From NCBI RefSeq assembly GCF_001423295.1, contig NZ_LMNG01000033.1, positions 62,001 to 126,000 on the forward strand: a stretch of DNA of 64,000 bases. The letters are read 5' to 3'. The notes under the pieces were generated by a model that was given only the letters and a program-made list of their open reading frames with translations, made no database searches and was not told where the DNA came from. Made by a program: the position numbers and the translations under genes. Position 1 is the first letter of the stretch. Every line of letters starts with the position of its first letter. Source of the stretch: Methylobacterium sp. Leaf112. Lineage in GTDB: Bacteria; Pseudomonadota; Alphaproteobacteria; Rhizobiales; Beijerinckiaceae. This document shows positions 56,598 through 57,431 of this stretch, piece by piece.

Positions 56598-56801
56598 TCA
56601 AATCTTGCTCTTGACCTTGTCGGTGAGGTTCTGGGCGCCGTCCTTGACGTCGCCGACGGTCTTCTGAGCTTCGCCCTTCAGTTCCTGGGCCTTGCCTTCC
56701 GCGACGAGCTTGTCGTTGCCGGTGACGTTGCCAGCGGCCTGCTTGACGTTGCCGACGGCCTCGTTGGCCAGGCCCTTGATCTTGTCGGTGGTGCTGCTCA
56801 T
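56598..56801 (-). CDS. CsbD-family stress protein
   Basis: A 67-aa hydrophilic helical protein: MSSTTDKIKGLANEAVG, then KQAAGNVTGNDKLVAEGKAQ and KGEAQKTVGDVKDGAQ. The repeated KxxGxxxxxxGxxTGxxxLxxEGxxxxxxG pattern is the full CsbD domain. Members are induced by general stress in Bacillus, E. coli and alphaproteobacteria, but their biochemical role is not known. The ATG at 56801 has an AGGAG site 9 nt upstream. Its own hairpin terminator follows. Confidence 0.88.
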   Translation of the reverse strand: MSSTTDKIKGLANEAVGNVKQAAGNVTGNDKLVAEGKAQELKGEAQKTVGDVKDGAQNLTDKVKSKI

Positions 56802-56864
56802 CGAAAAAACTCCTGTGCTGCGAGGGGGGTGAACGGACCGGTCGATCCCAACCGGCGGAGGGTC

Positions 56865-56886
56865 CGGCCCCGGGGAACCGAGGCCG
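56865..56886 (-). terminator. Hairpin with GGAA loop after the anchored CsbD region
   Basis: CGGCCCCGG (56865-56873), loop GGAA, CCGAGGCCG (56878-56886): eight pairs with one mismatch. On the minus strand it starts 6 nt after the TGA at 56895-56893. Confidence 0.55.
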
Positions 56887-56892
56887 AAGGGA

Positions 56893-57033
56893 TCAGGCGC
56901 GACGCGCGTCGTAGCGGTCGGCCACGGCGCCATCGTCCTGCTTATGGTCGTCGTCGGTCTGCGTCTTCGCCTGATCGCCCGGGATGCCCCGCGTCTTGCC
57001 GAGGGCGTCCCACGCGGCGGCGCCGGATATCAG
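56893..57033 (-). CDS. 46-codon coding-like tail in the -1 frame of the anchored CsbD gene
   Basis: This reading frame overlaps the TGA of the upstream gene (CTGA at 57033-57030) and runs to a TGA at 56895-56893. It encodes a hydrophilic tail including GAAAWDALGKTRGIPGDQ and DDDHKQDDGAVADRYDARR. About 41 of its 46 codons end in G or C, like real genes here. No ATG, GTG or TTG starts it (only one GTG, ten codons from the end). It could be the product of a -1 frameshift, of CTG initiation, or the end of a gene broken by a single-base change. Confidence 0.4.
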   Translation of the reverse strand: MISGAAAWDALGKTRGIPGDQAKTQTDDDHKQDDGAVADRYDARRA

Positions 57034-57374
57034 CGACGGGAATGGATCAGAAGGGCGAGGCCGTAGCCGACGGCGCCGGCGATCAGGAGCGCGACGAGTG
57101 GGCTTTCCTCGACTCGGTGGGCCACGGCACGCCGGCCTTCGCGAAGGTAGTGGCCGGAATTCTCGTAGGCGTGCTCGGCGTAAGCCTGCGTCTGGTCGGC
57201 TGCATGCCCGACGCTATCCTTCGCCTGGTCGTAGAGATTCTCGGCGCTACCCTGCGCTTCGCGGAAGCGGCCTTCGACGGAGTCGCTCTTAGACCCGATG
57301 AGATCACCGATGGTGCCCTGAGCCTTTCCGGCGAGTTCCCGGGCAGCACCCGTCACGCGGTCCGTATCGACCAT
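57030..57374 (-). CDS. CsbD-like protein with C-terminal membrane anchor
   Basis: A 114-aa protein. It has a CsbD-type N-terminus (DTDRVTGAARELAGKAQG, IGDLIGSKSDSVEGRFREAQ), a long amphipathic helical part (NLYDQAKDSVGHAADQTQAY) and one transmembrane helix (PLVALLIAGAVGYGLALLI) before the ending HSRR. The arrangement matches the other anchored paralogue at 56131. The start at 57374 has AGG at a good distance; an ATG at 57383 would add three residues. The stop is immediately followed by a coding-like tail in the -1 frame (separate entry). Confidence 0.78.
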   Translation of the reverse strand: MVDTDRVTGAARELAGKAQGTIGDLIGSKSDSVEGRFREAQGSAENLYDQAKDSVGHAADQTQAYAEHAYENSGHYLREGRRAVAHRVEESPLVALLIAGAVGYGLALLIHSRR

Positions 57375-57431
57375 GATGTTCATCCTGTTGGTTGTTGTTG
57401 CGTTGGAAGCATTCGCTTCTGGCGGTTCGGG

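Follow-up and report, generated by a model that had tools for sequence, protein, structure and literature searches.

A coding-like tail overlapping the stop of a CsbD-like gene in Methylobacterium sp. Leaf112 is very probably the deletion remnant of a PhnA-like gene

In Methylobacterium sp. Leaf112 the stop codon of a CsbD-like gene is overlapped, in the −1 frame, by an open and coding-like stretch of 46 codons that contains no ATG, raising the question of how such a sequence came to lie there. The locus sits in a window of 64,000 nucleotides (contig NZ_LMNG01000033.1, positions 62,001 to 126,000), within which all coordinates below are given. With a probability of about 0.94 the tail is a remnant, that is a degraded pseudogene, of a neighbouring PhnA-like gene that is mostly deleted here and whole in relatives. 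The features of the locus are as follows.

57383..57030, minus strand: CsbD-like gene of 117 codons, ending in CGC TGA
57033..56893, minus strand: 46-codon tail, very probably the C-terminal remnant of a PhnA-like gene, with the original stop and no ATG (matches, alignments)
57010..57029, minus strand: junction of the first deletion (alignment with the relative L062, flanking sequences of relatives)
56915..56926, minus strand: junction of the second, in-frame deletion, position approximate (alignments)
56863..56888, minus strand: GC-rich hairpin, the stem of which starts 4 nt past the stop of the tail (folding)
56598..56801, minus strand: next gene, a 67-aa CsbD (Pfam CsbD, E 3.2e-18), a neighbour also present in L062

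The tail reads CTG ATA TCC ... GCC TGA on the minus strand, corresponding to LISGAAAWDALGKTRGIPGDQAKTQTDDDHKQDDGAVADRYDARRA followed by the stop at 56895..56893. It begins at the last C of the CGC codon and overlaps the TGA of the CsbD-like ORF (57032..57030). G or C ends 41 of its 46 sense codons, ATG and TTG are absent, CTG is codon 1 and the sole GTG is codon 37, confirming the coding-like −1 frame, with the same codon count and no canonical start, that was reported in the preliminary description. At the local composition an open frame of 46 codons is ordinary and means little by itself. The probability that such a frame is open is ∼0.47, among all stretches of 46 codons in the window 54–59% are open, and the frame of the tail is open over 106 codons, reaching back into the CsbD gene. 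What stands above chance is the likeness of the tail to a real protein, with an E value of 4.4e-5 for a paralogue from its own genome and values as low as 4.7e-7 among relatives.

The tail corresponds to the C-terminal portion of a ∼303-aa protein, with tail residues 5–41 matched. A search of 99 genomes, including that of the window, returned matches (E ≤0.001) in 35 of the 98 relatives, comprising 35 of the 58 from the same genus and none of the 40 others. Apart from the window's own, all of the matches listed lie in open frames of at least 123 codons with no internal stops. In its own genome the tail has one match besides itself at this threshold, on contig C31 (58% identity over residues 7–39, E 4.4e-5), located in an ORF of 306 aa between a CsbD-like gene upstream and a gene for a 67-aa CsbD downstream. 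The ∼303-aa parent is labelled ‘PhnA-like protein’ by the annotators of several plasmid records, the matches to which cover query residues 19–243, the first 80%, and not the last part of the protein. Neither the 303-aa protein nor the tail matches a Pfam family, and NCBIfam returned none for the tail and only matches far below the cut-offs for the 303-aa protein. Whole or partial matches to the 303-aa protein occur in 106 of 110 further genomes of the genus, and seven times in the genome of the window. Two of the copies in this genome are interrupted. The copy at C22:5100-7500 is broken at a single N (base 621) adjoining a repeat of ∼33 codons, which looks like an assembly join. In the copy at C25:5200-7600, on the minus strand, a stop codon lies within an extra stretch bordered by a repeat of the codons for VDQAKAQIQ, which may reflect either a small insertion or faulty assembly.

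Gene order in relatives identifies the position from which the tail derives. Among 80 loci from named genomes, fetched with the CsbD protein, all nine in which CsbD identity was at least 71% have the PhnA-like gene next, as a separate frame, starting 44–102 nt past the end of the CsbD match (the start being extrapolated from the protein match). At CsbD identities of 66% or less the PhnA-like gene was found within 600 nt in two of 71 loci and was absent from 69. The nine closest loci overlap with genome stretches that were fetched separately. In eight such stretches, L062–L069, the downstream gene has an ORF of its own, the first start codon of which lies 29–46 nt past the CsbD stop, and, as this spacing varies, the phase of the downstream gene relative to CsbD is not fixed. 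The single continuous frame in relatives that the preliminary description had named as a refuting result is not what L062–L069 contain; they have separate genes and a spacer. The 67-aa CsbD gene lies downstream within 500 nt in three of the nine closest loci and was not found in the other six; L069 likewise carries it. A query of 301 bases spanning the junction was run against 111 genomes of the genus, including that of the window (six candidates scored per genome, the stronger matches listed). Of the matches listed, the window's own is the only one to extend from the end of CsbD into the tail. The others cover either the CsbD end, reaching no further than query base 132, or the tail and what follows it, from base 113 onwards.

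The CsbD-like gene itself (Pfam CsbD, E 7.5e-12) is intact. Its 117 codons are counted from the first ATG, and a start at 57374 (MVDTDRV) fits the relatives. The protein is 80% identical to that of L062, the nearest relative, and both end in LALLIHSRR. The possibility that the tail is the broken end, or an extension, of this gene was rejected on the basis of this common C-terminus.

Pairwise alignment of the window with L062 is collinear on both sides of the locus and interrupted by two large gaps. Between the CsbD stop and the codons for DALAK there are 20 nt in the window and 689 nt in L062, indicating the loss of ∼669 nt, made up of the spacer together with the start and ∼215 N-terminal codons of the PhnA-like gene. 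The second gap, after AVAD, amounts to ∼144 nt (48 codons) against L062 and 150 nt against the 306-aa type, and the lost segment is hydrophobic as judged by eye. Past this gap the window resumes at CGTCGCGCCTGA, and then continues through the hairpin to the gene for the 67-aa CsbD, which is 92.5% identical to L062 2185-2385. The stop and the residues that precede it (RRA, YDARRA) are common to the tail and the relatives. With relatives standing in for the ancestor, the endpoints of the deletions are placed to within a few bases only.

With the homology, the gene order of relatives, both gaps and the retained stop and a hairpin established, the ancestral order was probably CsbD (117 aa), PhnA-like (∼303 aa), hairpin, CsbD (67 aa). 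A deletion ending a few bases past the upstream stop would have taken out the spacer, the start codon and ∼215 N-terminal codons, and another, in frame, would have removed ∼48 codons near the C-terminus of the PhnA-like protein. The ∼40 codons left would retain the old codon composition, the stop codon and the downstream hairpin, and their position in the −1 frame relative to CsbD would be accidental. How and in which order the deletions arose is our inference, as is the absence of a protein product of the tail. Such a history explains the coding composition of the tail, its lack of a start and the placement of the hairpin near its own stop and not near that of CsbD. Counting against this reading are the lack of an internal stop in the tail, an inner deletion that is in frame (a one in three occurrence by chance) and the presence of the 67-aa CsbD gene downstream in just three of the nine closest loci.

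The closeness of the hairpin to the stop of the tail, to which the preliminary description had drawn attention, is upheld, although the stem starts 4 nt and not 6 nt past that stop; the zero-frame stop, placed more than 140 nt from the hairpin, lies 141 nt from the stem. Folding of the window and six relatives revealed that in the relatives, too, stems closely follow the stop of the whole gene. These start within ∼6–8 nt of the stop in L062, L065, L066, L068 and L064, with weaker outer pairing enclosing those of L066 and L064, while the stem of L063 is different and longer. Fold energies are only moderately below those of shuffled sequences for several (z −0.8 to −4.3), and at such GC content folds on their own prove little. 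The stem in the window may act as a terminator; the terminator scan did not flag the minus-strand hairpin and the stem contains no T run.

Against L062 the 30 codons of the tail that could be aligned display 13 nonsynonymous and seven synonymous differences (pN/pS 0.54), compared with pN/pS values of 0.25 and 0.16 for the flanking CsbD genes. The tail is not different from neutrality (P 0.14), whereas the neighbouring CsbD genes are (P 6e-9 and 9e-4); direct contrasts of the tail with these neighbours on 30 codons gave Fisher P values of 0.13 and 0.08. Comparison was extended to 19 whole genes from 20 fetched stretches, a set that leaves out L080 and includes loci besides the direct counterpart, among them L070, the paralogue from the same genome. 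Of the 14 residues invariant across these genes four are changed in the tail, against 0–2 for each whole gene when left out. Between the tail and the individual whole genes pN is 0.18–0.27, while the 170 whole-gene pairs have a mean of 0.10 and a maximum of 0.185. The pN/pS of whole-gene pairs scatters up to 6.4, and the ratio on 30 codons is too noisy. These data appear to favour relaxed constraint on the tail, which is unproven, the signal being not significant on so short a stretch.

Of the three options offered by the preliminary description, frameshifting, initiation at CTG and a broken gene, the last is retained, the broken gene being a neighbour that is whole in relatives; the other two are not supported. 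Ribosomal frameshifting by −1 at the stop of CsbD, yielding a fusion of CsbD and the tail, would fit a tail that is open and coding-like in this frame. Genes with programmed −1 frameshifts, such as dnaX, have a second open frame that overlaps the stop in the −1 phase. The tail resembles these only in that respect, as inspection by eye identified no slippery heptamer at TCC CGT CGC TGA, relatives L062–L069 carry two genes set apart by a spacer of variable length, with no conserved overlap, and the composition of the tail is accounted for by descent, making recoding exceedingly improbable. Equally hard to credit is a new small gene that starts at the CTG of the remnant or at another weak start. 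Its frame is still open, GC3 is retained at 90% in the 30 aligned codons and read-through transcription from the CsbD gene may occur. However, the CTG falls within the first bases of the deletion junction and none of the relatives compared has an equivalent codon. Residues that do not vary across the family are altered in the tail and, as judged by eye, the piece lacks the hydrophobic segments of the parent. It is only slightly less doubtful that the shortened piece is still translated, through reinitiation past the CsbD stop or from CTG, the in-frame inner deletion having been kept for a use of the hydrophilic peptide in its own right.

An assembly error, in which the gene is still whole in the genome and two stretches were dropped by the assembler, is unlikely, if less so than the readings that require translation. 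The sequence derives from one draft assembly of 34 contigs for a single strain of the species, and copies of the same family on C22 and C25 carry the assembly-like blemishes described above. There is, however, no N in the window, and two separate gaps would both need to be wrong. In addition, the tail has its own substitutions and the only other match in the genome (E ≤0.001) is 58% identical; therefore it did not arise by collapse with that copy.

The probable deletion remnant shares with the PhnA-like gene of Methylobacterium and other bacteria the stop, the hairpin that follows and the upstream neighbour, and differs in lacking the start, the ∼215 N-terminal codons and the ∼48 C-terminal codons. 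Bacterial pseudogenes eroded by deletion are, in general, startless gene pieces that keep the old stop and the hairpin behind it; the tail is likewise startless with a stop and hairpin, and there is no notable difference. The literature on CsbD in Methylobacterium, or on CsbD together with pseudogenes, deletions or frameshifts, held nothing bearing on the tail in the portions available to us. Similarity and gene order point to a deletion remnant and account for the coding-like tail without recoding, and the locus cautions that coding composition beside a stop codon can be an inheritance from a lost neighbour. One copy of a multi-copy CsbD/PhnA-like cluster would have decayed in one Methylobacterium lineage. 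The minus strand of the window carries four consecutive CsbD-like genes between 56131 and 57647, encoding proteins of 127, 67, 117 and 71 aa, the last of which scores 32.0 bits against a Pfam cut-off of 40.
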